Part shown: positions 23,519 to 64,000 of the stretch, in pieces
Numbering within the stretch: position 1 is the first letter of the stretch
Layout: the number at the start of each line of letters is the position of its first letter
NCBI RefSeq assembly: GCF_038396675.1
Contig: NC_088924.1
Span: forward strand, 21,906,001-21,970,000
DNA length: 64,000 nt
Direction of reading: 5' to 3'
Source of the DNA: Hydra vulgaris
Lineage: Eukaryota > Cnidaria > Hydrozoa > Anthoathecata > Hydridae
The notes under the pieces: model-generated
Told to the model about the DNA's origin: nothing
The model's database searches: none
What the model saw: the letters and a program-made list of their open reading frames with translations, nothing else
Program-made: the position numbers and the translations under genes

Positions 23519-23584
23519 TACTAAGTTACAATTCTTGTTGTAAGAGACCAGTACTAAGTTACAATTCTTGTAGTAAGAGACCAC
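23519..23584. repeat. Tandem 33-bp repeat at left edge of the element
   Basis: Two adjacent copies (23519-23551 and 23552-23584) of a unit starting TACTAAGTTACAATTCTTGT differ at only one or two positions. They are the first non-microsatellite sequence before viral genes and are a candidate part of the terminal repeat. Confidence 0.7.
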
Positions 23585-23684
23585 CCGTCCGAGTAAAAAT
23601 AAAAAACCGGTATACCGCAAAGTTTCAAGGAGTCCGAGGTAGAAGAGTGTTGAAGCGTTTTTTTCCCGGTCTCAAAGAAGGAGA

Positions 23685-23698
23685 CGCATGCGCATGCG
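23685..23698. other. GC-rich palindrome near the left end
   Basis: CGCATGCGCATGCG is a perfect 14-bp palindrome in an otherwise AT-rich end region. It lies about 170 bp inside the proposed border and 95 bp before the first gene. It could be a replication or protein-binding site; the function is unknown. Confidence 0.5.
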
Positions 23699-23739
23699 CG
23701 CATAAAAAAAAAGATCAGGTGATAAAAAATTTTTTAATA

Positions 23740-23776
23740 AAGCGTGACAAAAAAGTATATAAAGAGTATATAAAAT
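23740..23776 (+). promoter_or_regulatory. TATA promoter of first left-end gene
   Basis: AAGCGTGACAAAAAAGTATA followed by TATAAAGAG and a second TATATAAAA. The TATA box at 23756 is 37 nt before the ATG at 23793. The same AAGCGTGAC-(M)AAAAGTATATAAAG block recurs at 24011 before the next gene, so this is a duplicated promoter. Confidence 0.65.
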
Positions 23777-23792
23777 CGAAAAAACAAAAAAA

Positions 23793-23996
23793 ATGAGTAT
23801 TATTGATTATATTAGGTTGGTGATGGATTGTCTATATATTTTTTTTATCACATTAGTATGTTTTATTTATATTATAATAGTGGAAGGATTACCTTCGTTG
23901 TTTAATATAATACGGTTTGGAATACGTTTGTATTTTTTTATTGTATTTTATGCTATTGGTTCTATTATTGAAAATTTTAAAAATGAGAATGAATGA
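23793..23996 (+). CDS. Small hydrophobic membrane protein (67 aa)
   Basis: The product is almost entirely hydrophobic, with two likely membrane segments (about residues 10-30 and 40-58) and a short charged C-terminus. No family is recognised. It has its own TATA box and is the outermost gene at the left end. The neighbouring gene under a copy of the same promoter is also a membrane protein, suggesting a pair of terminal, possibly early, virion or host-modulating membrane proteins. That role is inference. Confidence 0.55.
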   Translation: MSIIDYIRLVMDCLYIFFITLVCFIYIIIVEGLPSLFNIIRFGIRLYFFIVFYAIGSIIENFKNENE

Positions 23997-24010
23997 AAAT
24001 GATTTTATTG

Positions 24011-24040
24011 AAGCGTGACCAAAAGTATATAAAGGGTGAA
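24011..24040 (+). promoter_or_regulatory. TATA promoter, shared TATA-GGGTG-A-run type
   Basis: AAGCGTGACCAAAAG followed by TATATAAAGGGTGAAAAAAA. The TATA/GGGTG/A-run core is identical to the one at 51495 and near-identical to a minus-strand copy at 50459-50479. Two very short upstream ATGs (24047, 24052) precede the gene start at 24067. Confidence 0.72.
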
Positions 24041-24396: not shown

Positions 24397-24621
24397 TTAT
24401 TTTCCAATTCTATTAATTCCGTAAGAAATTCCACCAGAGATAGCTCCACCCAAAACAGCTTTACCAATGGTAGGTATAAGAGCGCTAGCAAATGCTGGTA
24501 TAATGGCTTTAGATGCCATTCCTAAAAGAGGTCCAAAAAGAAATTTACCACGCATACGTCTTGTTCTGTGTCTTTTATAATGTTTTTTATAATTTCTTTT
24601 TTTATGTCTTCTTTTCAACAT
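24397..24621 (-). CDS. Arg-rich / hydrophobic pX-VI-like minor capsid or core protein (74 aa)
   Basis: The N-terminal 30 residues are dense in Arg, Lys and His (KRRHKKRNYKKHYKRHRTRR). The rest is an Ala/Gly/Ile-rich amphipathic or membrane-active segment with GG doublets. This layout is typical of adenovirus/adintovirus core peptide pX and membrane-lytic pVI-type proteins, which condense DNA or disrupt membranes after protease cleavage. It is the last of four tandem minus-strand basic genes downstream of the major capsid gene. It shares RMRGKFL with the adjacent 54-aa protein. The match is by composition and position only. Confidence 0.62.
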   Translation of the reverse strand: MLKRRHKKRNYKKHYKRHRTRRMRGKFLFGPLLGMASKAIIPAFASALIPTIGKAVLGGAISGGISYGINRIGK

Positions 24622-24881: not shown

Positions 24882-25073
24882 TCAAGCTTTATACCAAGGG
24901 TAAATTTTTAATTTTCTTAAAGTGTCTTGTATTTGATTACCACCTCGTAATTTTCTTTGTCTTCTAAATCGCTTTTTACCAGCTCCTTTTAAAGGAGGTA
25001 AATAAACTCTCCCTCTTCCTCTTTTTTTATATGATTTTATTTTACAAGCGGTGCAACACGCTATTTTACGCAT
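24882..25073 (-). CDS. Arg-rich core peptide (63 aa)
   Basis: It begins with a small cysteine cluster (CCTACK), followed by RGRGRVYLPPLKGAG and a basic stretch. It contains two adenain-type sites, LKGA|G and LRGG|N. Its start overlaps the end of the preceding gene by 8 nt. It is a paralogue of the 54-aa gene next to it, pointing to local duplication of a pX/mu-like gene. Confidence 0.6.
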   Translation of the reverse strand: MRKIACCTACKIKSYKKRGRGRVYLPPLKGAGKKRFRRQRKLRGGNQIQDTLRKLKIYPWYKA

Positions 25074-25368: not shown

Positions 25369-26829
25369 TTAAGACGATTGAAATTTGGTAGGAATATAGT
25401 TGACTTCAGTGTCGGTTCCTGACCCTTGTTCAATAACTTGAGCTGGATATTGCATATATATAACAAGCACACCTTTTAATTGTTTTGTAAATTGCACATT
25501 GATTTGGAACGAATTATTTCCAGCAATAGTTGCAGGAGGTTTATCGTTGATAAATATATAATCACTAGTGGTATCGATGATTAAAGGTTCTGTAGTGTTA
25601 GTAGTACTAAAATAGAGTTTAGGATGTCTCAAAAAGCTATCATCGTCCGCATTATAAAAATCTGCAATATTGTTAATATTAAAAGTAGAGGGCGTATTTC
25701 CTTTACACCAGGAAACATAATGTTTCCAAAGGGTCAATTGATCGTCTTGCTTTGTCATATCGTATTCAGTAGTATCACCCGCTGAATTAACATATGTTCT
25801 TCTGTAATTATAAAGGGTGATTTTTTTAATCATGCTGCAAGCCATTTCAACCGGTGTAAAACAACCTTTGCTTAAATGATCGCTTTCTTTTTTTGAATTA
25901 ACAGAAAATATAATGTTGTGAGGTACAAGATCTGCTGTTTTTATACTTCCCAAATTGACAGTGACTTCTGACACATTTTCTACATTGGTGACAATTTGTT
26001 CGTAGTGAGCAATACGTAGTAAAGTATACATTTCGTCTTTTTTACTGTTGAGATATAAAGATTTTTCCAAGGATAAACTAGGTTTGAGTCTATACGTATT
26101 GCAATAAATCATTGGGTTTTTAATAGCTACTCCCACATTGGCAAGCGCTGTTACGTTTGCGTCTGAAATAGGTCTTACCCATTCTAATAGTTGATTCATA
26201 TCGTTTTCAATATAAAACTCAAATCTAACTTGTTTATTTTTTCCAAAATATTCTTTCATTTGAAAAATTTCACATATCAAACTCAAAGGCACTCTAAATT
26301 TACAACCTTTTTCTCCAGTCATGAAAGCATTATATCTATCTCTTAGCGTTGTTTGATAACCTGGAGGTACAGGATAAGGTGCAGCAGCTGTATTAAGAGG
26401 ACGAATGAGTCCATTAGGGTCTGCAGATTGTATAAGCGTTTTGGTTTCAGTATAAGTAATAGGGGTTGTATTTTCAGTTTCTTCTGTTAAACCTAAACTA
26501 GGATTAATCCACGACTCTCTAAAAGCTTTTATAAAACTTTTTTTCACTAGCATTGATTTAAATCGATCATAAGAACGATTAATAATAGCGTTGTTTGCGC
26601 AAGTAGTATTATTTTTTTGATAGTTGGGATAAAATTTGAAACATTTAAATAAGGCTTGAATAAAGTTGTTGCAAAGACATACTTTTGTTATCAACTCATC
26701 GTCTGTTGTAGGTGTAAATTTTGTTTGCGTGTTGACATTTTTATAAAGAAATAAATCAAAATCTATATAATAATCGGGTAGATATGTCCATTCGTTAAGT
26801 ATAGTGGTAAAAGAAATTAAATTAGCCAT
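25369..26829 (-). CDS. Major capsid protein candidate, double jelly-roll type (486 aa)
   Basis: Length and position suit a Polinton/adintovirus hexon-like major capsid protein. Residues 176-189 (CKFRVPLSLICEIF) followed by QVRFEFYIEND resemble the conserved strand between the two jelly rolls of that family. The C-terminus has another strand-rich segment (GVLVIYMQYP). It lies between the 68-aa gene and the basic peptide cluster. The frame upstream of this ATG is open for 18 codons and is separated by a single TAA from the 68-aa frame, so the two may once have been one protein, or the start may be as given. Structure prediction would be decisive. The alternative candidate is the 1,017-aa protein. 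Confidence 0.6.
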   Translation of the reverse strand: MANLISFTTILNEWTYLPDYYIDFDLFLYKNVNTQTKFTPTTDDELITKVCLCNNFIQALFKCFKFYPNYQKNNTTCANNAIINRSYDRFKSMLVKKSFIKAFRESWINPSLGLTEETENTTPITYTETKTLIQSADPNGLIRPLNTAAAPYPVPPGYQTTLRDRYNAFMTGEKGCKFRVPLSLICEIFQMKEYFGKNKQVRFEFYIENDMNQLLEWVRPISDANVTALANVGVAIKNPMIYCNTYRLKPSLSLEKSLYLNSKKDEMYTLLRIAHYEQIVTNVENVSEVTVNLGSIKTADLVPHNIIFSVNSKKESDHLSKGCFTPVEMACSMIKKITLYNYRRTYVNSAGDTTEYDMTKQDDQLTLWKHYVSWCKGNTPSTFNINNIADFYNADDDSFLRHPKLYFSTTNTTEPLIIDTTSDYIFINDKPPATIAGNNSFQINVQFTKQLKGVLVIYMQYPAQVIEQGSGTDTEVNYIPTKFQSS

Positions 26830-26883
26830 ATCAGAAGTAAGATCGTAAGAAAATTTTTGATTGTTAACAGCAATGACTTCATC

Positions 26884-27090
26884 TTAAGCTTGAGCTGTTT
26901 GAAAACCAGGATATTTTTCATTTAATACCGCTTTATATTCTGCGCTAATATTACCACTTGTTGCTTCTTGCAATAAACGGTTTTCGTGGTCTGCTTGTGC
27001 CAAAACATCTTCAATAGTAACATGACCATTTGTATTGGGTGTATAGCGATTACTATCGCCGTCTCTCATATATTTAGCTAACGAACCCAT
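26884..27090 (-). CDS. 68-aa protein in frame with the capsid gene
   Basis: A small acidic protein starts MGSLAKYMRDGDSNRY and ends in FQTAQA. Its stop is followed in the same frame by 18 sense codons and then the capsid ATG. An MGS start could be myristoylated, but nothing proves it. It could be a small minor capsid protein or an N-terminal segment cut off by a stop. No homologue is recognised. Confidence 0.5.
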   Translation of the reverse strand: MGSLAKYMRDGDSNRYTPNTNGHVTIEDVLAQADHENRLLQEATSGNISAEYKAVLNEKYPGFQTAQA

Positions 27091-27855: not shown

Positions 27856-30800
27856 TTAATTGTAAAACGGAACCATTTGAATCTTTAGCGTAGGATTAAA
27901 AAAAACAGTAGAACTAAGATTATTAAAGGTAAGCGGTTCATATTTTGAATTGAGAAACGACCATCTTGTTTGTTTCCAATCGTCTACATCGTTGATATCA
28001 AAGGTGGATAATTGTCCTTGAATAGAAGGATTACGATTTTTTGTAAAATCAATATTGGTGGTTATTTGAGTAGAATTGGTGTAGTCTAATAAATTGAAAA
28101 AAGCAACAATACCGGGAACATAAATTTTGTTCATATACATTCCACAATTTACAGCTTGATCGCATTTGATAAAAATGTAAGCGTCTGTAGTTGAAGGAAA
28201 GTTGGAAACAGTGTTATTAAAATTACTAATTTGAACAAGAGCACATCTTAAGAAAGCGAGTCTTTTTTTTTGAATTTTAAAATCTAACGATATGGCGTTG
28301 GTCATATTTTGATCCACTTGCATAACAAAGGGATTGATTTGTTGAGTTAAACTGTATTGATCTCTTTGTAAAAGTAAAGTATAAGGTATAGGATTGTTCC
28401 CAACAGGTTGATACATTTTTAAAATGATATTTTTTAAAGGTAAACTGTCTGTCCAAGTTTGTATAATCGTACCATCACTCTTTTTTTGATAAATGAATTG
28501 TCCATTAAGAGAAGTGCAATAAAATATTAATTCTGTTGGGTTATTTCCTTGTAATATAGCTTTGACACTATTTAACCATGTTTTATGACTCGGTGTAGTC
28601 GCTCTTTCTAAACTACTTGTTGTGACAAGAGGTACTTTGATGGTAATTGAAAAAATAGGTTTGCTTTGTTCGCAATATAACAAAATTTCAATAAATGTTT
28701 CCGCGTTGTATTTAGCTATTAAACTAAAATCTGCTGAAATTAATTTATAAATATCGTCAGGTAATTTGGATGGTAAAGTTTGAAAAGTAATAGGTGCTCC
28801 AAATTGTTGATGATATGGAGAAATTTCATTTGATTTCATTTCAAAATACAGAGAGTTATTTGAATTAATTAAGGCTTTACTTATTTGTATCGGTGATGAT
28901 AATTGTCTTTCAAAAGACGGCAAACACCAAAAAGTGTAATAATTATTTAAACCGTCTTTAGGAATGCAAGAAGCGATTTGATATTCTTGACTTGTTATTA
29001 GTTTGTTGTAAGTATAACGATAAGATCCATCATAGACAAAATCTGAAAAAGTAATATTGTTTAAATTTAATTTGAGTAAATTGTTAGGTAGTTGATAGTT
29101 TATACTTTCAGTAAAAACGTCTAACATTTTTAATTCTCGTTCGGGCCATATGATTTGTTCTACGTTAAAAAAAGGTATTGGTAAAGATGATAATGGTACG
29201 TTTTTTAATGTAAAACGATAATATTTTCTTTGACTTGTATTTGGAAAAAATATTTGGTAAAAACTTGTAAGGATTTCCGTCGGTTCAACACCTATACCTG
29301 TTCCTTGAATGTAAAGAAATTTTGTTGCTATATTTCCAATGGCGAGTCTAAAAATTTCTATAAAACCTTCTAAGGTCATTTTTTCTTGTGTGTAGTTTCC
29401 GTTAGTGTCTTTAACATTGACATGATCGTTCCAAATTTTCCATAAAGCGTTAATTTTGATAGGAATATCAACGAGTTCAGTTTCTATATTATATATATTA
29501 CCTTCGGATTTTATTGTGTTTGAGTTGGTCATTATTTTTAATAAAAAAAAAGCAATTTGCCATGGCACAACATGTTTCATTTTGCTTGTTTTAACGCTTT
29601 CTGTAGTAGGTAAAAGATTATTAATATAAACATCTAAATCAACGCTTAAAATATTAGCATCACGTGTGTCTGGAACAATAGGACTTGTTGAAGAGTTTTG
29701 AACAAATGTTCCTCCATATTTTGGTGTTACCATGACATGAATAAAAGGTCGTACAAAAGTTTCTTCTACATTGTTTAAAATGATTTGTCTTTGAGGTGTT
29801 AGATTTGCTATATCACCTGGAGCTACTTCTGGATGATTGATGTAAAGGAGAAAATTTTTACTAGTTCGAGTTGATAAAGAAAAGTTATATAAATTATCAT
29901 ATCTCGATTTGTAAGAAAGATAATCATATTGCAGTAAGGATGTAAAATCTTGAGCAGTGTGTTGATTTGCGGTTGTTCTGTTTGAAAAAAAACCAAAATA
30001 GGATAGTCCTCTTTCATTCGTTTTGCTTCCAATACTCGATCTTATAGGGTAAAGATAAGAAGGGTTATTAATAAATTCATTTGTTTTTGGTTTATAATAC
30101 CAAAAAAAATTATAATTAGGAACGGTAATGTAAGAATAGGCTTGTATATATTGTTTGATGTTCATGTTTGAATCTATATTTAATTTTGAAATGATAGTAT
30201 TTTCGTTGTTAGTTACATAACGGAAGTGTGTATTTGAATCGAATAAATATTTCAAATTTAAATATTTTTGATTGGATATAGCATTAATTTTATTTTGATA
30301 ATTTGGAAAAAAGTCAGTAAAATAAAGTTTTCTATTTAAAGAAGTATTAAAAAGTTCTAAACGTCTAATTAAAAAATCGTCTTGATAAGGACTTGGACTA
30401 GCATTACCAAACATTTTTGCGTAATTTAATTGAGTTGCTATTGCTTCTTGATGAAACGATGACATTTTTTCCATATCCAAAATATCAAAATTTAAAAATG
30501 TGTCACCTGGTAAGGTTTGAAAATTGGTAAATAAAACAACATTTTTTGTTATGAGATAAAATGGAATTTTTCTAGTGGGATTGCTAATGATATCATTTTG
30601 AATGTCTGTTATCATTTGTTTGATAGAAGGTTTGGATTCCATTCTTAAACCATAATTGTTTTCTAAGAAGGATAGGTTTTCATCTACTCGAGTTAAATTA
30701 GTAGGTACGTCCATACTGGCTAAATGTAAAATGGTGTTATTTTTAAATGTGGGTTTGTCGATATCGTTAGGAGTCAAGGGCAAACTAAAATCGTTCAACA

Positions 30801-30909
30801 CATTATAATGCTCGCTAGCTTTATTTTTATTTTTAATTTCACTAAAATAATACGTGCTACAATCATATTTATTTACATCTAAAACATCGTCAAACGTTAA
30901 ATTGTTCAT
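27856..30909 (-). CDS. Large structural-protein candidate (1,017 aa)
   Basis: A fully open, Asn/Thr/Phe-rich protein without transmembrane segments, with many alternating hydrophobic strands and no catalytic motif. Its ATG overlaps the integrase stop by 4 nt (ATGA), so it is co-transcribed. It sits where adenoviruses place penton base relative to IIIa and hexon, and its size suits a large virion shell or vertex protein. I do not recognise the family. A divergent major capsid, penton-fibre fusion or adinto-like minor capsid are all possible. Confidence 0.5.
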   Translation of the reverse strand: MNNLTFDDVLDVNKYDCSTYYFSEIKNKNKASEHYNVLNDFSLPLTPNDIDKPTFKNNTILHLASMDVPTNLTRVDENLSFLENNYGLRMESKPSIKQMITDIQNDIISNPTRKIPFYLITKNVVLFTNFQTLPGDTFLNFDILDMEKMSSFHQEAIATQLNYAKMFGNASPSPYQDDFLIRRLELFNTSLNRKLYFTDFFPNYQNKINAISNQKYLNLKYLFDSNTHFRYVTNNENTIISKLNIDSNMNIKQYIQAYSYITVPNYNFFWYYKPKTNEFINNPSYLYPIRSSIGSKTNERGLSYFGFFSNRTTANQHTAQDFTSLLQYDYLSYKSRYDNLYNFSLSTRTSKNFLLYINHPEVAPGDIANLTPQRQIILNNVEETFVRPFIHVMVTPKYGGTFVQNSSTSPIVPDTRDANILSVDLDVYINNLLPTTESVKTSKMKHVVPWQIAFFLLKIMTNSNTIKSEGNIYNIETELVDIPIKINALWKIWNDHVNVKDTNGNYTQEKMTLEGFIEIFRLAIGNIATKFLYIQGTGIGVEPTEILTSFYQIFFPNTSQRKYYRFTLKNVPLSSLPIPFFNVEQIIWPERELKMLDVFTESINYQLPNNLLKLNLNNITFSDFVYDGSYRYTYNKLITSQEYQIASCIPKDGLNNYYTFWCLPSFERQLSSPIQISKALINSNNSLYFEMKSNEISPYHQQFGAPITFQTLPSKLPDDIYKLISADFSLIAKYNAETFIEILLYCEQSKPIFSITIKVPLVTTSSLERATTPSHKTWLNSVKAILQGNNPTELIFYCTSLNGQFIYQKKSDGTIIQTWTDSLPLKNIILKMYQPVGNNPIPYTLLLQRDQYSLTQQINPFVMQVDQNMTNAISLDFKIQKKRLAFLRCALVQISNFNNTVSNFPSTTDAYIFIKCDQAVNCGMYMNKIYVPGIVAFFNLLDYTNSTQITTNIDFTKNRNPSIQGQLSTFDINDVDDWKQTRWSFLNSKYEPLTFNNLSSTVFFNPTLKIQMVPFYN

Positions 30910-32201
30910 TTTTTCTTTTTTGCTTGCAGTTTTTTCTTCAAAGGTTTTAAAAAAGTGTTAACATATTCGTTAAAGTTTTTATAATAAATGTCTTTGTCTT
31001 CTTCGTTAACAGGTAACAAATCTTCTCGCTTTAATTTAAATGTTGTATTTAAATCGCCCACTATTCCCACTTTATAAATATAAACGGGTAAATAACCTTC
31101 GACTGAAGGGTTAGTACGCTTAAAGACTTTGATAATAATCACTTTTTTGGTAGTGTCCCAATACGGTTGATCGCGAGTAGTCGATTTGCTAAATGTGTCT
31201 TTGGGATCTATTTTATATTTTTTCAAATAACATTCGGTTCCAACGGAGAGAGGTTTGTATATTTTTAATTTTTCGTTTTTGTATTCTTTTTCTACTCGAT
31301 GTAACATGTTGGAAGAAAAATGATGTCCTCGTCTTTTGCCGTCTCGGTATTGATCGACTAAACGAAGAGCTTTACCTTTGGCATCGTCAGCATCCAATTC
31401 ATTAGGAGCGATTCCACTCGTGACTCGTTCTTTTTCGTTGAGTTTTTGTTCAATGTCCTCGATATAAAAACTCCAATTCTTTTTTTGAAGTTCGCCTTGT
31501 TTTCTTAATTTTTGATAAAGTTGTTTTAATCGTCCTATAGTTGATTCGGCCAAGTAAGCTTTTCCATAATTTTTAGAACTAAAATGAACAATGTTTTGTT
31601 CGTAACACCATTCTTCCATTTTGTTATTAAAAAATTCACCACCTTGATCCGTTTGCAAGTAGATAAAAGTTTTATCGTCTCTTTTAATGTCTTCAAAAAT
31701 ATGTTTAAAACTGCTCAGCACTTTGTCGGCTGTTTTTTTACTGGTGACCCTCAAATAGACTTTTTTAGATACTCCATCAACTAAAACTAAACAAAATTCG
31801 GGTCGATGAGGAGCAAAATTTAAATTAAAACTGTTCATGTCGGCCAAATTAGCTTGAAAATATTGCCGAGGTCTATCGTACGAATATTGATGTGTTTCGT
31901 AAACATAAGGTTTGCGAGGGGCTTGTTTTTTAACGTTGACATCTGTTGTTTTTTTAAAAAGCAAAGTAACGTGTGACCAAGCGGTAATGAGACCGTTCCA
32001 TTTTGCGTAAATGGAATTTTCTAAAAGCGCTCTGAGTTGATCATAAAATTTCAAATCGGCTGGATTTTTTTTTAAAGTGTCCAATTGTAGTAATACTTTT
32101 TTAATTTTGGGTACATCTGTCAACGCAAAGAAACGACTCGATAATTTAGACAGTTGATTTTCTACAAGGTTGTCAATAGCATCTCTCAAAACATTGTCCA
32201 T
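30906..32201 (-). CDS. Retroviral-type (rve) integrase, Polinton class (431 aa)
   Basis: The DDE triad is visible: D121 in QANLADM, D185 in LQTDQGGEF and E219 in YLAESTIGRL, with 33 residues between the second Asp and the Glu. The strand and helix pattern is that of retrovirus/Maverick integrases. The N-terminal 90 residues are helical. After the core is a C-terminal SH3-like segment (VGTECYLKKYK...) and a Lys-rich tail. It would insert the linear viral genome into host DNA. The gene is intact, with flanking structural genes in the same direction and a 4-nt overlap downstream. Confidence 0.9.
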   Translation of the reverse strand: MDNVLRDAIDNLVENQLSKLSSRFFALTDVPKIKKVLLQLDTLKKNPADLKFYDQLRALLENSIYAKWNGLITAWSHVTLLFKKTTDVNVKKQAPRKPYVYETHQYSYDRPRQYFQANLADMNSFNLNFAPHRPEFCLVLVDGVSKKVYLRVTSKKTADKVLSSFKHIFEDIKRDDKTFIYLQTDQGGEFFNNKMEEWCYEQNIVHFSSKNYGKAYLAESTIGRLKQLYQKLRKQGELQKKNWSFYIEDIEQKLNEKERVTSGIAPNELDADDAKGKALRLVDQYRDGKRRGHHFSSNMLHRVEKEYKNEKLKIYKPLSVGTECYLKKYKIDPKDTFSKSTTRDQPYWDTTKKVIIIKVFKRTNPSVEGYLPVYIYKVGIVGDLNTTFKLKREDLLPVNEEDKDIYYKNFNEYVNTFLKPLKKKLQAKKKK

Positions 32202-51494: not shown

Positions 51495-51514
51495 TATATA
51501 AAGGGTGAAAAAAA
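51495..51514 (+). promoter_or_regulatory. TATA promoter identical to that at 24026
   Basis: TATATAAAGGGTGAAAAAAA lies 50 nt before the ATG at 51545. The 20-base identity with the left-end promoter, 27 kb away, marks a shared transcription class. Confidence 0.75.
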
Positions 51515-55798: not shown

Positions 55799-56058
55799 TT
55801 TTGTTGACAATGCTCAACATAAACTAAAAAATGTTTCAAAGGAACTTTAAAGGTTTCAAAAGGAACTTCTTCATATATAAACTCAATAATAAGTTCATCA
55901 TTGAAACGTGTTACTTTAATAATTATTCCCCGTTTGTAATGATGCGTCAATGAAAAATCACCCTTAGCTTTACTATTTGTTTTAAACAGTGAAATATAAA
56001 AATCTTGTAATTTTGAAAACGGACAATAACTCTCTAAATAATCGATAAAATGTTTCAT
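55711..56058 (-). CDS. Small protein of a three-member paralogous family (115 aa)
   Basis: Start at the ATG 56058, which overlaps the previous gene's stop as ATGA. A KGDFSLTHHYKRGIIIKVTR segment followed by LIIEF and WLLSKKDE is matched in the 96-aa neighbour, and less closely in the 142-aa gene (FGDYILTYEYENGVVEII). Beta-rich core, acidic C-terminus. Function unknown. Confidence 0.5.
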   Translation of the reverse strand: MKHFIDYLESYCPFSKLQDFYISLFKTNSKAKGDFSLTHHYKRGIIIKVTRFNDELIIEFIYEEVPFETFKVPLKHFLVYVEHCQQKWLLSKKDEILDQKNVKVIEREYAEEEED

Positions 56059-56345
56059 TCTTTTATGTCTGCTTCTTCGAGTAACCAAATATTAAATGTC
56101 TCTTTAATAACATCGACAAAGTCTTCATATAGCATTTCAAATTCGTGTTTGTTTACATCAAAAGTAAAATCAATATGGGCTTTATTATTAACACGAGTTA
56201 CTTTGATTTGTTTACTTCCATCCAGACGAAAAAATAATTTAAAATTACCCTGCACTTGTTTTAAACTATCATCCGTTGTAAAAGATGAAGTTTCTAAATT
56301 ATTAATCGTTTTATAAAATTCGTTTAAACAAGTTTTAAACTCCAT
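56055..56345 (-). CDS. Small paralogous protein (96 aa)
   Basis: GNFKLFFRLDGSKQIKVTRV, then HIDFTFD and NIWLLEEAD, align with the 115-aa neighbour. Acidic, no membrane segment. It overlaps the next gene by 4 nt (ATGA), implying a common mRNA. Function unknown. Confidence 0.5.
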   Translation of the reverse strand: MEFKTCLNEFYKTINNLETSSFTTDDSLKQVQGNFKLFFRLDGSKQIKVTRVNNKAHIDFTFDVNKHEFEMLYEDFVDVIKETFNIWLLEEADIKE

Positions 56346-56467
56346 TTTTTTTGTTTATTTCAAATAAATTTTTTTTCTTCAAATGAAATTATTTATTTCA
56401 AAAAAACTGAATTTATAGTACTTTTTTTAATAAAAACCGAAAAAAACACTATTAAATATTTTTTTTA

Positions 56468-56896
56468 TCAATATATTTTTGGTATTTTATTACCAATATA
56501 AAAAACTCCCTCGTTAATATGAGAAAAACAATATAATTTATTTATAATGTCAAAATCTAATATAAATCCTCCCCAAAAAGTAGATATTTTCAAGTGTCCA
56601 TTTTCTTTATTACCACTAATAATTTCCACAACACCATTTTCGTATTCATACGTAAGGATATAATCTCCAAACGCGCTCGTATCCGTTCTTAAATTTTTGA
56701 GCTTTTGACTTTGTTTTTCTTTATCTTTTAATAACCAAAGACAATCTTCTATATTTTCTCGAACATATTGACGAAATTTTTTTACAAAACATCGTTTGCA
56801 ATACTTTTTATGTGCGATTTTCTTCTTGTGTGTTTGCATATTTTTGAATTCATTTTTGTAAGTAAACGTTTTACAAAGTTGAGCTTTTTTATACAT
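56468..56896 (-). CDS. Basic-N-terminal member of the paralogous trio (142 aa)
   Basis: Lys/Cys-rich N-terminus (HKKKIAHKKYCKRCFVKKF) followed by WLLKDKEK and the family core FGDYILTYEYENGVVEII, and a C-terminal strand-rich part. The order of WLL and core is reversed compared with the two neighbours, suggesting a circularly shifted duplication or coincidence. Function unknown. Confidence 0.45.
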   Translation of the reverse strand: MYKKAQLCKTFTYKNEFKNMQTHKKKIAHKKYCKRCFVKKFRQYVRENIEDCLWLLKDKEKQSQKLKNLRTDTSAFGDYILTYEYENGVVEIISGNKENGHLKISTFWGGFILDFDIINKLYCFSHINEGVFYIGNKIPKIY

Positions 56897-56909
56897 GTTT
56901 TTAATCCGA

Positions 56910-57113
56910 TTAAACTATAGTTTTAAACAAATCACCAATTAAAGGAATACCTCCTAATAGGTTACCAAGGATACCTTTACCACGTTTTCTAAGTATACGT
57001 TTTCGTCCTTTACCAACTAAAGAATGATGAGGTCTAGGATGAGCTCTCGAATTTCGATGAACAAAAATATATCTTTTAGCATTTGTATGACCTCTATGTC
57101 TTCTATGTCTCAT
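56910..57113 (-). CDS. His/Arg-rich pX-like peptide with hydrophobic tail (67 aa)
   Basis: The first 50 residues are Arg/His/Lys-rich. The last 17 form an amphipathic segment (LGNLLGGIPLIGDLFKTIV). LVGK|G and LLGG|I fit the adenain consensus, so cleavage could release a membrane-active tail. This is the same architecture as the 74-aa gene at the left cluster. Its ATG overlaps the stop of the preceding gene (ATGA). Confidence 0.6.
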   Translation of the reverse strand: MRHRRHRGHTNAKRYIFVHRNSRAHPRPHHSLVGKGRKRILRKRGKGILGNLLGGIPLIGDLFKTIV

Positions 57114-57541
57114 TTTTTTTTAAAAATATTTCTGTGTTTATTGCGATCTACTTTTGTTAAAACAAAACGATATATCGGTTTTCCGACTCGATTCATTTCA
57201 CGATTTGATTTATTATTTATATACTTGCTTTTTGTTTTTCGATAACACATCAGTGCTTTTCTACAATATTGACGCTTTATTTTTTTCAAGTTTTTCTTAA
57301 CTCTTCTGCGTCTTAGAGTTCTTAGTTCTGTATTATTAGGATCAGTTAACTCGTTTTCATCAAAAGAGGTCCTATCAAAAAATTCAAAAAAAGCATCCCT
57401 ATGATGAGGCCATTTTCCATCTACTGTATATTTAGGTAATTTAGATGTATATTTAGGTCTCAAATTGCTTTTATTTGAAGGTGTTGAAAATAAATTTCGT
57501 CTTACAATCATACGGGAAAAATCAACATCATCTGCAGCCAT
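57110..57541 (-). CDS. Basic virion-type protein, RVGK family (143 aa)
   Basis: Acidic-neutral N-terminus, then an Arg-rich block (LRRRRVKKNLKKIKRQYCRK) and YINNKSNREMNRVGKPIYRF. The last segment is shared with the 113-aa gene at 58862-59203 (YKDNKTNRNLGRVGKRIKRW), so the two are paralogues. It is likely a DNA-binding core protein (pVII/V-like), by composition and by co-transcription with the pX-like peptide. Immediately upstream are four GACTT-containing repeats. Confidence 0.55.
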   Translation of the reverse strand: MAADDVDFSRMIVRRNLFSTPSNKSNLRPKYTSKLPKYTVDGKWPHHRDAFFEFFDRTSFDENELTDPNNTELRTLRRRRVKKNLKKIKRQYCRKALMCYRKTKSKYINNKSNREMNRVGKPIYRFVLTKVDRNKHRNIFKKK

Positions 57542-57630
57542 TTTTGACTTTAACTTTTTTTTTTTTGACTTTACCTTTTTTTTTGACTTTAACTTTTTTT
57601 TTGACTTGTATTTTTTTTATATCTTTTTTT
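57542..57630 (-). promoter_or_regulatory. 5' leader with four AAAGTC/A-run repeats and a TATA-like box
   Basis: On the minus strand, four units of GTTAAAGTCAAAAAAAAA-type sequence precede the ATG of the 143-aa gene, and GATATAAAAAAAAT lies just upstream near 57,614-57,628. A-run leaders of this kind recall poxvirus-like slippage leaders, but here they may simply be repeats. Confidence 0.45.
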
Positions 57631-57659
57631 TACAAGATAAAAAAACATAGTATCACCCT

Positions 57660-57847
57660 GACACAACCTGACTTATTCTATCTTTACTTTATCTTAGTAG
57701 GCCTACTTACTTATGTTTTTTCTTACACTCTTTATATTTTATACGGCCGTATTTTTTTCTTACTTACTTACTTAGTCCTTACTTATCTTACTTAATCCTG
57801 CCTTAGCCCTTAGCCTGCTTACTCACACACTCGTGCGCTCACTCCAC
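57660..57847. other. Purine-poor, CTTA-repeat tract
   Basis: About 190 bp on the plus strand rich in pyrimidines, with repeated CTTA/CTTAC words and a CGGCCG site. Its composition differs sharply from the A-rich surroundings. It forms part of a ~900-bp intergenic region between divergent genes. Confidence 0.5.
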
Positions 57848-58079
57848 ATACACTACCAAGTCAACTTTCGTCGGCTTGATATTTTTAACATATAACTAAC
57901 TAGACATACATTACCAAGTCTACTTTCGTCGGCTTGATATTTTTAACATATAACTATCTAGACATACATTACCAAGTCTACTTTCGTCGGCTTGATATTT
58001 TTAACATATAACTATCTAAACATACATTACCAAGTCTACTTTCGTCGGCTTGATATTTTTAACATATAACTAACTAAAC
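57848..58079. repeat. Four 58-bp tandem repeats
   Basis: Four head-to-tail units of about 58 bp, each containing TACCAAGTC, CTTTCGTCGGCTTGATATTT and AACATATAACTA, nearly identical, with the first unit the most diverged. They sit in the largest intergenic gap of the element, between divergent transcription units. They are a candidate origin, enhancer or packaging sequence. Confidence 0.85.
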
Positions 58080-58089
58080 TTTCTACTAC

Positions 58090-58175
58090 TTTTACCGAGA
58101 ATCGAACCCTCAACGGTCTAATGTCATGGCGTTAGAAACATAGTGCGGCGAGCGAATGCACTATGCTACGTCGAC
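58090..58175 (-). ncRNA. tRNA-like sequence with Pol III A and B boxes
   Basis: On the minus strand TAGCATAGTGCA (58157-58168) resembles an A box and GGTTCGATTC (58099-58108) matches the B-box consensus, at tRNA-like spacing. I could not fold a canonical tRNA, and there is no immediate T4 terminator. It could be a tRNA-derived SINE fragment picked up from the host, or a small Pol III transcript comparable in position to adenovirus VA RNA. Confidence 0.45.
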
Positions 58176-58457
58176 GTGATGGTTCATGGAGTTTTGAATT
58201 CATTTAACATGTTATTTTAACACTTTACGCAGAGTTTTTTTTTCGCAGTGTTTTTAAAAAGTTGTTTACTCCGTATTTTAATCTTTTTAATCTTGTTCAT
58301 AAAAGCACTATTAAAAGTTTCTAATTTTAACTAGCATGACACAGCATTTTCTTTTCATTGCATAAAGTTACATCACTTTAGCTATTATTTCGCGTTAATC
58401 TGTAGAGATTAAATTTTATACATAAAAAGCGTGTTTTTTGTTAACAAAATCAAAAAA

Positions 58458-58773
58458 ATGATGAGCCAGATGGTAATAGTCATCGAAGACGAGCCAGAAT
58501 ATGAATTTACAGATTTGAATATTTTCAACGGCAACCCCGATGAAATCGATTTTGTGCTCAAAACCCCAGACGAAAAAAAAACAAAAGAAACAAACCCAGA
58601 CGAAACATTAGATTTCACAGAAGAACCACTAAGAACCGTTAACAAGAGTATAAAAAAAGTAAGCCATTTTTAAACACTTTTTTATATTAAACATGTTTTT
58701 TTTTTTTTAACAAACATTTTTTTGTTTTTTAGAAAAAAAAAAAAAAGCCGATCAAACAAAAGAAGTGATTTAA
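58458..58773 (+). CDS. Spliced acidic protein with Lys-rich tail (~80 aa)
   Basis: Exon 1, 58458-58658, encodes an acidic protein (IEDEPEYEFTDLNIF; FVLKTPDEKKTKE). A gtaagc donor and a TTTTTTAG acceptor remove 73 bp in phase. Exon 2 (58732-58773) adds a five-Lys run and ADQTKEVI. Unspliced translation stops at 58673. The acidic N-terminus with a basic nuclear-localisation-type tail suits a small transcription regulator, which is inference only. Confidence 0.5.
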
Positions 58774-58861
58774 AAAAAACTATAAAAAGACTATTTTTTT
58801 CACCTACTATTTATTCTTATCAATAATTTTTTTGTATATAAATTTTCTTTTTGTAAATATA

Positions 58862-59203
58862 TTATTTTTGTCTATTTTTTCGTCGTATGTTTGCTTCTTT
58901 TAATTGATGTTTAATATCGACATAAGATTCTCTAGTATGAACCCAGCGTTTTATTCTTTTACCAACTCTTCCAAGATTACGATTTGTTTTATTATCTTTA
59001 TATCTGTTATTTGTTCTTCGTAAACACGATAATATTCTTTTACAATTGCTCGGTAAATACTGATTTTCAGTCTGTGTTGATGTTGAACTTTGTTTTGTAC
59101 TTGTTTGTGTTTGAACTGCTTTTTTTGTTCTAGGAACTGTTGTTTTTGTACGTGCCATATTGACAGTGTTTAATGATCTAGGAGTATACCTTGTTTTAGG
59201 CAT
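58862..59203 (-). CDS. Basic protein, RVGK family (113 aa)
   Basis: Thr/Gln/Ser-rich basic N-terminus (ARTKTTVPRTKKA resembles a histone H3 tail start), then CKRILSCLRRTNNRYKDNKT and LGRVGKRIKRWV shared with the 143-aa gene at 57110. It is likely a DNA-condensing core protein. The ARTKT-like tail is intriguing, but it starts at an internal methionine (residue 16). Confidence 0.55.
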   Translation of the reverse strand: MPKTRYTPRSLNTVNMARTKTTVPRTKKAVQTQTSTKQSSTSTQTENQYLPSNCKRILSCLRRTNNRYKDNKTNRNLGRVGKRIKRWVHTRESYVDIKHQLKEANIRRKNRQK

Positions 59204-59357: not shown

Positions 59358-59784
59358 TAAAAAAAAATAATCATCAAAATAATCATCAATAAAATAAAAT
59401 ATGAAGTCTTTCACGATGGGTTTTTTAAAAACCACTATATTATTCAAAATGGAAAAAAAACACCATTTCAACACGTACAACCACACTCACCTGCATTAGG
59501 TAATTTTTTATATTATTTTTTATAAAAATAATCAATTCTTTTTTTATAAAAAAACTTTTTTTTATTATAGATAAAAATATGGAAAGACTCACACTATTCA
59601 TAGAGCGCGTGCGAGAACGGCATGAAATATCAAGAGAAGTCGGACCATCACACTGGGACTACTCTCCTCGTAAGTCGAACTTGATCTTTTTTTATTTATA
59701 ATTATAAATCATTTTTTTAAATATTCTTTTTTTCTTTTTTTAGAAAGTCCAGAACCAGAATACCAAGAGAGTGATATTTTATAA
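59358..59784 (+). CDS. Spliced small protein, 2 or 3 exons
   Basis: Exons 59579-59669 and 59744-59784 join in phase (gtaagt donor, TTTTTTTAG acceptor) to give 43 residues from the ATG at 59579 (MERLTLFIERVRERHEIS...). A further upstream segment, about 59,361-59,509, is open and joins in phase at a gtaatt donor to 59571 (FHDGFFKNHYIIQNGKK...). It has no ATG of its own, so it would need an upstream or trans-spliced start. No family recognised. Confidence 0.42.
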
Positions 59785-60106: not shown

Positions 60107-60397
60107 ATGTTTAATCAAGTTATTATGGATTTAACGAGAGAAATAAATCACCAATGGAAACCTTTGTCAATCTAACTAGGTTATAAAAGAGAGCATATTA
60201 AGTCCATCGACGATAATTATATTAAAAACTCAGATAAAATGAGAAAAATTTTAATTCTTTACATAAAGAAAGACCATAAAAGAGCGATCAAACATTTATA
60301 CTCGATTTTATCACACTGGCAAAAAAACAATAATAATCAAGAACTTATTTTTAAATTAGAACGTTGTAAATTAATTATTTTGAATTATTTATATTAA
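60107..60397 (+). pseudogene. Death-domain-like gene with in-frame stop
   Basis: From the ATG at 60107 the frame reads a Death-domain-like segment with a TAA at 60173-60175, then continues (LGYKREHIKSIDDNY ...) to 60397. The spacing of W, LGY and I-x-x-I matches the intact gene at 60472, so it is a broken paralogue. TTTTTTTAATAG precedes the ATG. A short N-terminal peptide or reinitiation product is possible but unlikely to be functional. Confidence 0.62.
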
Positions 60398-60471: not shown

Positions 60472-60801
60472 ATGAATTATACACAATTAAAACTAAAAAT
60501 AACAGCACAATTGCAACCATGGCAAATGGCAGAACGATGGCAAACTTTAGCAGCTTATCTTGGTTATGAAAAGCGTGAAATAGAATGTATACAACATGAT
60601 TACCCCAACAGTAATGAAAGAATGATGAGACTTTTAAACTTAATTTATCAAAGAAAAGGTACCGAACTCGAAGCAGCTCGCGCTATATATGAAGCTTTAT
60701 GGGATTGGTCTATCGATGTTTTAACATATGAAATTAATAATACACTTTTAGATCATATAAAAAAGACTATGGAAATTGTAAAAATTTTTATAATGCAATA
60801 A
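60472..60801 (+). CDS. Death-domain protein (109 aa)
   Basis: Residues about 15-95 form a Death domain: MAERWQTLAAYLGYEKREIECI, NSNERMMRLLNLIYQRKG and ARAIYEALWDW, with the conserved Trp and LA..LGY. It has no other domain. By family knowledge it could bind host Death-domain adaptors and inhibit apoptosis or innate signalling; this is not shown here. The TTTTTTTAG leader ends 9 nt before the ATG. Confidence 0.75.
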   Translation: MNYTQLKLKITAQLQPWQMAERWQTLAAYLGYEKREIECIQHDYPNSNERMMRLLNLIYQRKGTELEAARAIYEALWDWSIDVLTYEINNTLLDHIKKTMEIVKIFIMQ

Positions 60802-60864: not shown

Positions 60865-61311
60865 ATGAAACAATATATTGAAAATCGATATAACAAAAAC
60901 TGTGGATGGTAAGCCTATACACTTTTTTTCTTTTTTATACATTTTTATATTTTTTATACATTTTTATTTTTTTCTCTTTGTTATGGAGAAAATATCAATG
61001 AAGAAACTATATGTTATCACGACTTGATATTAACAAAAGAAGAAGAACAAGATTTGGAACAAATTATGGAAATGGAAGAATTAACAGAGGAAGATTATGA
61101 AAAATATTTAGAACAGTTAATACAAGAAATGGAAGAAGAAGAATCAGATTACATTGAAGAACTAAAATTACAAATGTTAGAAGAAGAAATGGAAAAGGAA
61201 GTGGAAGAAACAGAAAAAGAAATTCACGAAATCTTTGAAGAAATGGATTGGGAGCACTATATTTTAGACGTTATTAATAAAATGGACAATTTACCAGAGC
61301 TTTATTTATAA
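60865..61311 (+). CDS. Glu-rich acidic protein, gene structure uncertain
   Basis: The clear coding part, 61024-61311, is extremely Glu-rich and helical (TEEDYEKYLEQLIQEMEEEE), probably a coiled coil. It is open upstream to about 60,991 but the first in-frame ATG is near 61,066. An ATG at 60865 with a TTTTTTAG leader and a gtaagc donor at 60909 suggests an intron, but joining to the AG at 60987-60988 is out of phase. Either another acceptor is used or there is an indel. Confidence 0.45.
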
Positions 61312-61494
61312 TTTTTTTTATTTGTAAATATATCTTTTATTTGTAAATAATAACATTCATCACTTTTTAAATAATAAACTCGACAATAAGAACACATGGT
61401 TTTGAAGCCATCATATTGCAACATAAGACGAACAGTTGTGATAAAATAAGATCACTTTATTTTGTAATTTTTTCTTTTTTTAGTCAACTAAAAA

Positions 61495-61746
61495 ATGAAT
61501 AATAATGACGATTTTGAAGATATGTTTGATGGGTTTGGTGATATTTTAAACGAAGTAGAAAATTTTGAAGATATGTTTGATGGGTTTGGTGATAATTTAA
61601 ACGAAGTAGAAAATATAACTTTTAACAATATGTTCGAAGAACAAGAAACAAACATTAAAACGAACATTGAAACGGACTTTATTTATATTTTTATTCTTGT
61701 ATTTTTTTATTTATTAATTTATTTATTTATTTCATTTATTTTATAG
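61495..61746 (+). CDS. Repeat-containing tail-anchored protein (83 aa)
   Basis: Two near-identical 20-residue units (FEDMFDGFGDILNEVEN and its copy) are followed by a linker and a C-terminal hydrophobic segment of about 22 residues. This suggests a tail-anchored membrane protein displaying a duplicated acidic peptide. The FxDMFxxF spacing resembles short binding motifs, but the partner is unknown. The leader has TTTTTTTAGTCAACTAAAAA. Confidence 0.6.
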   Translation: MNNNDDFEDMFDGFGDILNEVENFEDMFDGFGDNLNEVENITFNNMFEEQETNIKTNIETDFIYIFILVFFYLLIYLFISFIL

Positions 61747-61792
61747 TATTATTTTATATAAATGTTGTTTTTTTTCAGCAACTAATAAAAAA

Positions 61793-62872
61793 ATGTCAGC
61801 CAACATATATCCTTGCTGTTTTTGCGATAAAGAATTTAGTTCAAAAGATCTTTTACATCATCAAACAGAATGTTCTACAGAGCAATACTCACACCATTGT
61901 TTTACATGTAAAAAAAAGGTACAAGATTTGTTAAACCATGAATGCAATTACGAATTTCTAGACATAGAAAAATTATGCTCTTTTTGTAGTATCAAAGTCG
62001 ATGAACAAGTTTATTATGAACACTCTGTCGTCTGCTTTCTAGATTATAAAGAACAACAAAATCGTTATTGGAATCAAATCATTCAAGAAGAAAAGAAAAA
62101 TGTAAATTATTTGAATCTTTCTATTAATCAAATCATGAATAGAATGAAGAGTCTTCAAGAAATTTCAACTAAACAATTAGTCGACTCTAAAGAAAAAGAC
62201 CAAGAAATTAAAAAACTAAAAGAAGAAAACGACAAAGTTCATCAAACCCTAACAGAAACAAACAAAGAAATGGCAGAATTAAAAAGTCTCTTTTTCGACA
62301 ACATGATGGTTTTAGCAAATCAACAAGATACAAATCAACTGAAACAAGAAATAACAAAACTTTATCATATTACAGAAGAAAATAGCACAGAATTTTTAGC
62401 ATTAAAAAAATCCATTCAACAACCTAAAGAAGTAAAAGTGATACAACACATTTTTAAAAACACACAAATTATCAAACTCGATCAAATGAATCTCAGACTA
62501 TTATCAGATGAACCATTTTATACAAAACCCGTGTACACAACAGAAGGTTATCGTTTTCGTATAAAAGTTTATACTCGAAGTACTGACATCAACAAACTAG
62601 CCATTTACTTTCAACTCTTACAAGGTGACCTAGACGATGCTTTACAATGGCCTTTTACCAAAAAAATCATTTGTGCCTTAAAAAATAAAGATAAATTTTT
62701 TGCTCACACTATTACGAGTAATAATTATCTTCAAAGTTCAGACACTAGTTCTTTTGATAAACCTAACGAAGAATATAATGTAGCTGTTGGTTTTCATAAT
62801 TTTATTTCTCACGAAGAACTAAAACAATTTATTATTAACAATAATTTATTTATCACGATTACTATTGAATAA
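61793..62872 (+). CDS. TRAF-like protein: zinc fingers, coiled coil, MATH (359 aa)
   Basis: The N-terminal 85 residues hold three Cys/His fingers (CCFCDKEF...HH...C; CFTCKKK...H..C; CSFC...H...C) like TRAF-type zinc fingers. A long coiled coil covers about 90-225. A C-terminal MATH/TRAF-C domain has GYRFRIKVY and DDALQWPF around residue 280. No RING precedes the fingers, so it should trimerise and bind TRAF partners without ubiquitin-ligase activity, fitting a decoy. That is inference; a captured host TRAF is the likely source. The leader is TTTTTTCAGCAACTAATAAA. Confidence 0.82.
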   Translation: MSANIYPCCFCDKEFSSKDLLHHQTECSTEQYSHHCFTCKKKVQDLLNHECNYEFLDIEKLCSFCSIKVDEQVYYEHSVVCFLDYKEQQNRYWNQIIQEEKKNVNYLNLSINQIMNRMKSLQEISTKQLVDSKEKDQEIKKLKEENDKVHQTLTETNKEMAELKSLFFDNMMVLANQQDTNQLKQEITKLYHITEENSTEFLALKKSIQQPKEVKVIQHIFKNTQIIKLDQMNLRLLSDEPFYTKPVYTTEGYRFRIKVYTRSTDINKLAIYFQLLQGDLDDALQWPFTKKIICALKNKDKFFAHTITSNNYLQSSDTSSFDKPNEEYNVAVGFHNFISHEELKQFIINNNLFITITIE

Positions 62873-62990
62873 TATATTTTATGTAAAAAATGTATTTGTT
62901 CTATCATTGCTATTTTTTTATATGTTTTTTTTGTACTTTATCTAACAATATTAAACCATTATTATTTTTTTTAGATTAACTAATAAAAAA

Positions 62991-63440
62991 ATGAATGCGA
63001 TGGAAATTTTTAGACAAATAACTGATGAACTCACGTTCGAAAACGTTAGAAGTATTAGATTTATGTTAATAATTCCACATGGTATCAAACAAAAATTAAA
63101 AAACGCATACGATCTTGTAGAGTATATCAAAGATAATACCATAGAAGATTATAATGGAAATATTCATGAAAGCTTAGAAAGTAAATTGGAATTTTTACTC
63201 AACATGTGCAAAGTAATTCATCGAAATGATATTTTTAACAAATACAAAAATAAAATACCACGACTTCCTACTTATGAAGAAAGCGTTGTTAAAAATCTAC
63301 CACCTGTATATTCACCACCAAACGCAGTATATCCAAGTGCAGTTGTAGAAGCTAAACAAGAAGAACTAATTTATTTTTATAATCCTATACCAGAACCAGC
63401 TGAAGCACCTGAATGTTCACAAGAACCAGAATTCATTTAA
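62991..63440 (+). CDS. DED-like protein with PPxY motif (149 aa)
   Basis: Residues 4-88 fit a Death-effector domain: FRQITDELTFENVRSIRFML, AYDLVEYI and a KLEFLLNMCKVIHRNDIF segment with the R-x-D near 78-80. The C-terminal 60 residues are Pro-rich with PPVY (104-107) and PTYEES, a possible Nedd4-type WW-binding or late-domain motif. A DED could engage caspase-8/FADD-like host proteins, as viral FLIPs do. The DED call is by pattern and needs a profile search. Confidence 0.6.
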   Translation: MNAMEIFRQITDELTFENVRSIRFMLIIPHGIKQKLKNAYDLVEYIKDNTIEDYNGNIHESLESKLEFLLNMCKVIHRNDIFNKYKNKIPRLPTYEESVVKNLPPVYSPPNAVYPSAVVEAKQEELIYFYNPIPEPAEAPECSQEPEFI

Positions 63441-63509
63441 ATTTTTTTAATTTTTTTATTGTATTAACTCAATTTGTAAACTTTTTTTTTTAGTCAACTA
63501 ATTAAAAAA

Positions 63510-64000
63510 ATGGGAAGCAACTGGGGTAATATTGGAAGAATACTTCATAAAGAAGAAGCTACACTTCGCCACTTTTTACAAAGACTTCATAAACAAATGG
63601 GAATAGAAAAAAAATTTATAGAAATAGAGAAAGAAACCAGAAAAGCTAGTCGATATTTAGAAAACATTTATTCTTACATTAAAAACTTTGAATATCATAC
63701 ACTCATTTGGTTTAGCTCAGAAGAACGACATTATTCTTATTATCTTTTAGACTTTGATGATTTAACATTGGATTGCTCGAACAAATTTACCCATGAAAAT
63801 CAATCTCAACTTACCTTGAAAGATTTATGTAAAAGAACTTTGGCATATCATCGAATTCGTTTAGAATTTAAACACTTGCAAAAGAAAATTGTTTCTTTAT
63901 TTAATAAAACCAAACTATCACTTAGCAAATGGAAAAATAAAGATAATATTAGTTTGTTTTTTTACAATTTTCATTCTTTTGTTGATTTTGAATTTGATTC
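63510..64000 (+). CDS. Accessory protein, truncated by window end
   Basis: Open from the ATG at 63510 through 163 codons to the window edge. Helical N-terminal half (EATLRHFLQRLHKQMG). LTLKDLCKRTLAYHRIRL near residue 108 has the S/T-L-x-x-L-C-R/K pattern of a SOCS box start, but the rest is not convincing. TTTTTTTTTAGTCAACTAAT precedes the ATG, as for its neighbours. Confidence 0.5.
   Translation, partial: MGSNWGNIGRILHKEEATLRHFLQRLHKQMGIEKKFIEIEKETRKASRYLENIYSYIKNFEYHTLIWFSSEERHYSYYLLDFDDLTLDCSNKFTHENQSQLTLKDLCKRTLAYHRIRLEFKHLQKKIVSLFNKTKLSLSKWKNKDNISLFFYNFHSFVDFEFD

Follow-up and report, generated by a model that had tools for sequence, protein, structure and literature searches.

An endogenous DNA virus of Polinton/Maverick type, 42-50 kb long, in Hydra, with candidate trans-spliced gene arrays and death-fold genes

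Our analysis of a 64,000-nucleotide stretch of the Hydra vulgaris genome (the window; assembly GCF_038396675.1, contig NC_088924.1, C5:21,906,001-21,970,000) showed that the block extending from base 23,511 to the right edge of the window (64,000) is a single copy of an endogenous DNA virus of the Polinton/Maverick type that measures 42-50 kb in Hydra. As one unit, the element brings together terminal inverted repeats (TIRs), 6-bp target duplications and genes for an integrase-like protein, a helicase, a dUTPase and a capsid-type protein; its capsid gene occupies at least 88 loci, and some copies are near-identical. We consider it probable that the explanation set out below holds as a whole, namely that this 42-50 kb virus is recent, carries trans-spliced gene arrays and encodes decoys of death signalling. 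The stronger proposal, that it is an animal DNA virus which is still multiplying, whose early and accessory operons rely on host spliced-leader trans-splicing and whose death-domain, death-effector and TRAF mimics are aimed at the ancient FADD-caspase/TRAF pathway, is in our view evenly balanced between true and false.

The left terminus was placed at base 23,511 by comparison with sibling elements; the element begins there with TGATGATATAC, directly 3' of a TA microsatellite. With the left terminal 290 bases as query, a search of the genome (911.5 Mb, 15 contigs) returned 46 matches including the window's own, several of which form inverted pairs on one contig. Boundaries were checked on short end pieces of eight sibling TIR pairs, the window copy being followed to 64,000 only. 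All eight pairs have TIRs, and seven of them bound full elements of 42,432, 42,433, 42,433, 42,436, 42,981, 44,991 and 49,904 bp (42.4-49.9 kb), with equal 6-bp flanks (AATGCG, TATATA, TATATA, TGTATA, GTTACC, GTTGAT and TGTGTT); the three TA-rich duplications are weaker evidence because they are situated in repeats. The TIR arms of the last three full pairs listed (42,981, 44,991 and 49,904 bp) are 95.6-97.8% identical over alignments of 113-237 bp. The eighth pair bounds a 13.1-kb derivative, at which a target-site duplication was looked for and none was found. Because seven of the eight pairs bound full elements with equal 6-bp target duplications, the length of more than 40 kb is genuine and does not come from a mosaic. 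A preliminary description of this DNA, made from its letters, had proposed that a giant endogenous virus of Polinton-like type, exceeding 40 kb, forms a contiguous block from about 23,519, and had named the absence of a right-hand TIR as the mark of a mosaic. The proposal is borne out by the siblings, seven pairs of which gave a favourable result; the start of the block has been refined, and its reach to the right edge is retained.

Two observations concern the termini themselves. TA-rich insertion sites recur in four of the 11 left ends seen (the copies at L012, L013 and L014 and that in the window), hinting at a target preference of the integrase. The most conserved part of the TIR (query positions 152-265) contains GCATGCGCATGCGCGC (window 23686-23701), close to a TATA box; it resembles what we take to be a binding site of the NRF-1 type, and the TIR may double as a promoter.

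The window's major capsid protein (MCP) candidate matched at least 88 loci (90 matched rows) with 72-91% identity, its TRAF/MATH gene at least 113 loci and its DED gene at least 150 scored matches, all of them lower bounds covering the best candidates scored. At 47 or more of the 88 MCP loci a TRAF/MATH gene lies on the opposite strand and on the expected side at a distance of 21-47 kb (median 36.7 kb, against 36.4 kb in the window), and at 7 or more it is placed otherwise. This recurring spacing, and the sibling elements with their TIRs and target duplications, show that the block is a unit and not a product of chance. One score is shared by 12 MCP copies. When the left-end stretches of five of them were compared, six of the ten pairs were 100% identical over 1,609-1,634 bp, and the other four, whose alignments extend into the flanks, were 99.76-99.94% identical. 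The near-identity of these copies means that insertion was recent: the element has been multiplying until very recently, and may be multiplying still.

Several results count against the explanation that we favour. No TRAF partner was in place, among the matches listed, at 41 of the 88 MCP loci (both lists being lower bounds), internal stops interrupt 33 of the 90 capsid rows, and the DED, integrase and ATPase matches all fall below their Pfam cut-offs. The block might be a mosaic, in which a standard Polinton of 15-25 kb abuts neighbouring insertions, as its duplicated genes (MATH, death domain, basic proteins) and its accessory genes of mostly unknown function could be taken to indicate. This reading is refuted for the family by the seven of eight TIR pairs that carry target duplications 42-50 kb apart, and it sits badly with the recurrent MCP-TRAF spacing and with the signals common to both gene arrays; for the window we regard it as barely credible. 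A less remote alternative, doubtful in our view, is that the element is purely a transposon, spreading only within cells, and that its capsid genes are relics. The in-frame stop in the window's capsid gene and the interrupted capsid rows agree with this, whereas the 57 of 90 rows without an internal stop and the purifying selection on death-fold and TRAF genes in the pairs measured do not.

The features of the block are as follows, with strand in brackets.
23511-23800 (+): left TIR, terminus TGATGATA; preceded by TGTATA (the expected 6-bp target copy, TA microsatellite); partners in eight sibling pairs
23756-23767 (+): exact TATA[AT]AAAG[AG]GT box, promoter-like
24026-24037 (+), 50468-50479 (-), 50647-50658 (+), 51495-51506 (+): further exact TATA boxes
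24397-24621 (-): small basic/hydrophobic protein, candidate core or membrane-active peptide, from composition only
24882-25073 (-): small basic protein, from composition only
25369-27090 (-): MCP candidate (double jelly-roll), from AlphaFold/Foldseek ranking and genome copies
27856-30909 (-): protein of 1017 amino acids (aa), putatively structural; one relative in the protein search
30906-32201 (-): rve/DDE integrase; Pfam rve E 4.7e-6, below the curated cut-off, and weak retroviral integrase matches (E 0.054 and 0.059)
32229-34250 (-): 673-aa protein without Pfam match
34940-36202 (-): A32-like packaging ATPase; Pox_A32 E 7.7e-4, below the curated cut-off
36271-36519 (-): stand-alone death domain protein; Pfam 37.3 bits, cut-off 22.6
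36876-42512 (-): 1878-aa candidate PolB of protein-primed type with an HNH/EndoVII-like insert; motifs by eye, two relatives
42717-43763 (-): PIF1 helicase; Pfam E 1.9e-36
44406-49840 (-): left operon-like array of small genes, most with a T-tract and AG acceptor 12-17 nt before the ATG
49304-49840 (-): MATH (TRAF-type) protein, MATH49; Pfam E 2.2e-19
49922-50374 (-): dUTPase, first gene of the left unit; passes the Pfam cut-off; TATA box, no acceptor
50705-51406 (+): unknown protein; TATA box, no acceptor
51545-52492 (+): unknown protein; TATA box, no acceptor
54011-55174 (+): adenain/Ulp1-like cysteine protease candidate, motif by eye only
55538-59203 (-): cluster including small basic proteins, two of them paralogous (57110-57541 and 58862-59203)
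59579-59784 (+): small gene in which a 74-nt cis intron (59670-59743) is predicted, from reading frame only
60472-60801 (+): death domain protein with acceptor, DD60; passes the Pfam cut-off
61793-62872 (+): TRAF-like protein with acceptor, MATH61; Cys/His-rich N-terminus, coiled coil by eye, MATH by Pfam
62991-63440 (+): death effector domain-like protein with acceptor, DED62; Pfam DED E 6e-6, 26.9 bits, below the curated cut-off of 35.9
63510-64000 (+): open reading frame (ORF) with acceptor that extends beyond the window

The preliminary description had attributed to this block an adenovirus-like structural set, recognisable hallmark genes and at least 30 accessory genes. The last figure is fair as a count of ORFs (51 were called inside the block), most of which have no known function. 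The structural set stands in part: a double-jelly-roll capsid is likely, the protease comes down to a motif, and no penton was identified, the structure model of the 1017-aa candidate being unusable (pLDDT 28). The capsid candidate is a 486-aa ORF whose AlphaFold model is poor (pLDDT 40); a Foldseek search of the PDB with this model ranked double-jelly-roll capsids at the top, with no match of any kind at E 0.001 or better. The even poorer model of the 1017-aa protein gave no double-jelly-roll capsids, which is a limited control, and its Foldseek list made no sense; the protein itself is probably structural. A sequence search of the PDB with the capsid profile yielded chance matches only, and a protein search with the candidate returned two proteins, one of them from Hydra; in this and a further protein search, the closest proteins with a name were those of Hydra vulgaris. 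In the window's copy, a single in-frame stop lies between the first 68 codons (26884-27090) and the remainder (25369-26829), and intact copies exist elsewhere in the genome. Small basic or hydrophobic proteins are encoded at 24.4-25.1 and 55.5-59.2 kb.

Hidden Markov model searches bore out the hallmark genes unevenly. Pfam cut-offs were passed by the PIF1 helicase, the dUTPase, two MATH genes and two death-domain genes. The retroviral-type (rve) integrase by which Polintons/Mavericks are recognised was found, though with a score below the curated cut-off; the ATPase is a candidate, its match likewise scoring below the cut-off. For PolB, no polymerase match was obtained in Pfam or the PDB, and a PDB search with its profile gave chance matches only; the assignment follows from what we take to be polymerase motifs, read by eye in the 1878-aa protein. 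This candidate shares residues with two relatives, for which Pfam gave nothing better than Endonuclease_7. The family PF03175 was found neither in this genome nor in any of 14 control genomes, and its absence is uninformative because it was silent in all the controls as well. The protease candidate, without a match in Pfam or the PDB, shows by eye a His...Asp...Gln...Cys-Gly pattern that is presumably that of such enzymes. Scans of viral contigs with the ATPase, PolB, integrase and capsid alignment found no relatives.

The sequences upstream of the genes showed a T-tract, an AG and then an A/T-rich stretch (often AACTAAT) ahead of the ATG. We scored a splice-acceptor-like site where at least seven of the eight bases before an AG no more than 40 bases from the ATG were pyrimidines, the last one included. 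Such a site precedes 15 of the 19 left-array genes (mean 1.42 and maximum 5 in shuffles) and 5 of the 7 right-array genes (mean 0.50 and maximum 3 in shuffles), there with the AG 9-22 bases before the ATG; neither count was ever reached in 500 dinucleotide shuffles per upstream stretch. None of the 11 structural genes has such a site, whereas it occurs at 2 of the 14 middle genes, at 3 of the 53 host-part ORFs that are 40 aa or longer and at 5 of the 43 non-called ORFs inside the block. A weight matrix trained on 11 left-array sites scored the right-array sites at 62974 (19.8), 61483 (16.3), 60460 (15.5) and 60844 (13.7) above the best host-part site (13.4). The rule and the gene lists were fixed after the window had been viewed, and copies elsewhere served as the independent test: in seven stretches, 39 of the 43 starts that are homologous (aa identity 34-96%) retain the acceptor, with variable tract length and flanks, and none of five control starts has it. 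Starts without an ATG within four codons (in an equivalent listing, dUTPase three times, DD60 once and o610 once) and alignments beginning after residue 6 were excluded before this count, and two of the first three stretches fetched (L015 and L017) were dropped, none of the query genes being present. Of the 18 gaps between left-array genes, 12 measure 44-169 bases and 6 measure -8 to 37.

Promoter-like boxes mark other genes. The window has five exact TATA[AT]AAAG[AG]GT boxes, all within the element, where 0.05 are expected from block shuffles; with one mismatch allowed there are 8 against 4.55 expected in the window, which is not unusual. Four of the exact boxes stand 37-105 bases ahead of called genes that have no acceptor (23793, 49922, 50705 and 51545), and the fifth 132 bases ahead of 24158. 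The box before dUTPase is kept in copies L034 and L039.

We read the acceptor-bearing arrays as putative operons resolved by the spliced-leader trans-splicing of Hydra, with cis-splicing possible, above all in the right array. Excerpts of the literature describe a suitable host: H. vulgaris adds spliced leaders to at least one third of its genes (PMC7986045), trans-splicing at a T-rich AG site resolves an operon that has been tested in Hydra (PMC3273482), and 30.9% of transposon Iso-Seq reads of the AEP strain bear spliced leaders (PMC12220107). The same source lists Maverick as putatively active, within a total of 334 Mb, or 36.6% of the AEP genome, of putatively active transposons. The SL-B1 sequence has 231 exact matches in the genome searched, and its reversed control none. 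In the left array, a single donor-like site (window 50,423) lies between the TATA box and the first acceptor, and it lacks conservation, reading GC in L034 and L039, as trans-splicing would predict.

Against this reading stand a number of details. The matrix scored 63493 (11.8) below three host-part sites (12.3-13.4), did not place the 61793 site among its top 60, and gave false matches inside the block, for example at 48211 (+; 16.7) and 58732 (+; 15.8). The four misses among the 43 starts all retain the AG, one as AAG and one with an interrupted tract; conservation continues past the AG (AACTAATAAAAATG), which is not required of a splice acceptor; the search for exact TATA boxes gave none ahead of the right array, and copy L016 lacks the one before dUTPase. 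Maverick, according to the excerpt of PMC12220107, is expressed and lies outside the top fifth of transposon types by expression. In the right array, donor-like GATG|GTAAG occurs in four of the five copies viewed (the window, L035, L036 and L038; not L037), so that alternative cis-splicing could serve there, and the full order acceptor-ATG-donor gave a pattern match in the window and L036 and none in L035, L037 and L038. In a generic donor scan, sense donors did not outnumber antisense ones in either of the arrays.

These donors, together with the predicted cis intron at 59670-59743, are what an account based purely on cis-splicing would draw on, in which the acceptors of the same element serve alternative splicing from one leader exon per array in the manner of adenovirus transcription units. 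The unconserved left-array donor and the spliced leaders on AEP transposon reads tell against it, and we think it unlikely, with the proviso that both modes of splicing may occur. It is less likely still that the T-tract/AG/AACTAAT motif acts at the level of DNA, as a promoter or some other signal, and that the accessory genes are transcribed singly. Conservation beyond the AG up to the start codon would suit such a signal; the deviations, however, obey splice rules, the base before the AG at the 39 kept acceptors being T in 34 and C in 5 (a pyrimidine is demanded by the counting rule itself), the tract varies in length around a constant AG, and the motif is missing from those genes that have a TATA box a short way upstream. 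Within the right array, a short ORF with its own acceptor (60865-60908, also in L036) ends in the conserved donor-like GATG|GTAAG; it was considered as a first exon of the 61066 gene and rejected, no join to the AGs tested preserving the frame.

The element also has a set of genes with death-fold and TRAF domains. The death domain encoded at 36271 has RIPK1 (E 9.1e-6) and FADD (E 2.7e-5) as its closest solved structures, and the 61793 protein TRAF5 and TRAF3; the DED-like protein (62991-63440) had no match in the PDB. Compared with the window, intact pairs gave dN/dS values of 0.34-0.56 for DD60 (n=3), 0.26-0.40 for MATH61 (n=4), 0.13-0.35 for DED62 (n=4) and 0.23 for MATH49 (n=1), 6 of 29 gene pairs having been excluded as broken or cut. 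Less favourable are two accessory genes with dN/dS above 1 in one pair each (o444, 4.7; o614, 1.3). The presence of death-domain, DED-like and TRAF/MATH genes, under purifying selection where measured, suggests interference with host death signalling. Directly upstream of DD60 lies a decayed second death-domain-like sequence with an internal stop (60140-60319), and the pair is likely a tandem duplication. Elsewhere among the accessory genes, small Cys-rich paralogues, two of which share 75% aa identity, form a young tandem array at 44809-46399, an expanding family.

In the explanation that we favour, transcription would begin at the TATA boxes ahead of first genes such as dUTPase. The downstream non-structural genes (PolB, PIF1 and accessory) would be read from arrays in which they follow one another head to tail, most of them having a 3' splice acceptor of their own immediately ahead of the ATG, and host spliced-leader trans-splicing would divide the long RNA into separate capped messages, the structural genes being expressed by another route. 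The death-domain, DED-like and TRAF/MATH proteins would act as decoys or adaptors in the receptor-FADD-caspase and TRAF pathways of the polyp, delaying cell death during replication. If the splice reading is true, the element would represent a DNA virus organised around trans-splicing, and its host is one in which operons can arise by this route. The element doubles or triples the usual size of an animal Polinton, with clean boundaries; its near-identical copies in a laboratory animal make movement or particle formation of animal Polintons directly testable, and its death-fold genes would lend themselves to probing how cell death is signalled in an animal lineage that branched early.

To the left of the element, the host and transposon flanks of the preliminary description were recognised by eye only, as kinase-like and transposon ORFs. 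Among these, an intronless ORF pair at 10499-12320 has the look of a piggyBac-type transposase, and an ORF at 5565-7085 that of a tyrosine recombinase of Crypton type.

Putative activity of Mavericks as a class in Hydra is already published, as is the presence of spliced leaders on the transposon RNAs of this animal (PMC12220107). A limited search, in part of the literature, found no publication on 40-kb Hydra Polintons, trans-spliced operons or death-fold genes in such an element. What appears to be new, as far as the predicted genes and signals go, are the acceptor-bearing gene arrays and the set of death-domain, DED-like and TRAF/MATH genes in a Polinton-type element. With Polintons/Mavericks, including those recorded in Hydra, the element shares TIRs, a 6-bp target duplication, an rve-type integrase and candidates for a PolB-type replication gene, an A32-like ATPase, a double-jelly-roll capsid and a protease. 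It differs from them in its operon-like accessory arrays, its death-fold and TRAF genes and its length of 42-50 kb, where excerpts of PMC10120064 give 15-20 kb for Mavericks, Polintons and adintoviruses. With its candidate PolB and capsid it also resembles the adintovirus plan of PolB, retrovirus-type integrase and adenovirus-like capsid. According to the available text of PMC11071296, the definition of adintoviruses asks that BLASTP against adintovirus hexons recognise the capsid and that PolB bear an OTU-like domain, and most mammal-associated ones have homologues of anti-apoptotic genes; in that of Bellas et al. (PMC10120064), cnidarian capsid genes fall outside the Maverick/adintovirus cluster. 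Protist Polinton-like viruses (14-40 kb) are likewise integrated, multi-copy, often bounded by TIRs and sometimes large (PMC10120064), whereas the Hydra element has an animal host, is larger and carries TRAF and death-fold genes; the Preplasmiviricota are placed below 50 kb in the portion of PMC11071308 available. The RFC140-flp operon of Hydra also expresses a foreign gene through a T-rich tract, an AG acceptor and spliced-leader addition (PMC3273482), but it has two genes and an acceptor 417 nt past the upstream stop codon, unlike a viral array with gaps of mostly 44-169 nt. A dinoflagellate RNA virus with a 5' dinoSL likewise joins viral RNA to a host spliced leader (PMC10235124); there the excerpt speculates on molecular mimicry in an RNA virus, and not on the resolution of operons, which is the role that we propose for trans-splicing in the Hydra element.

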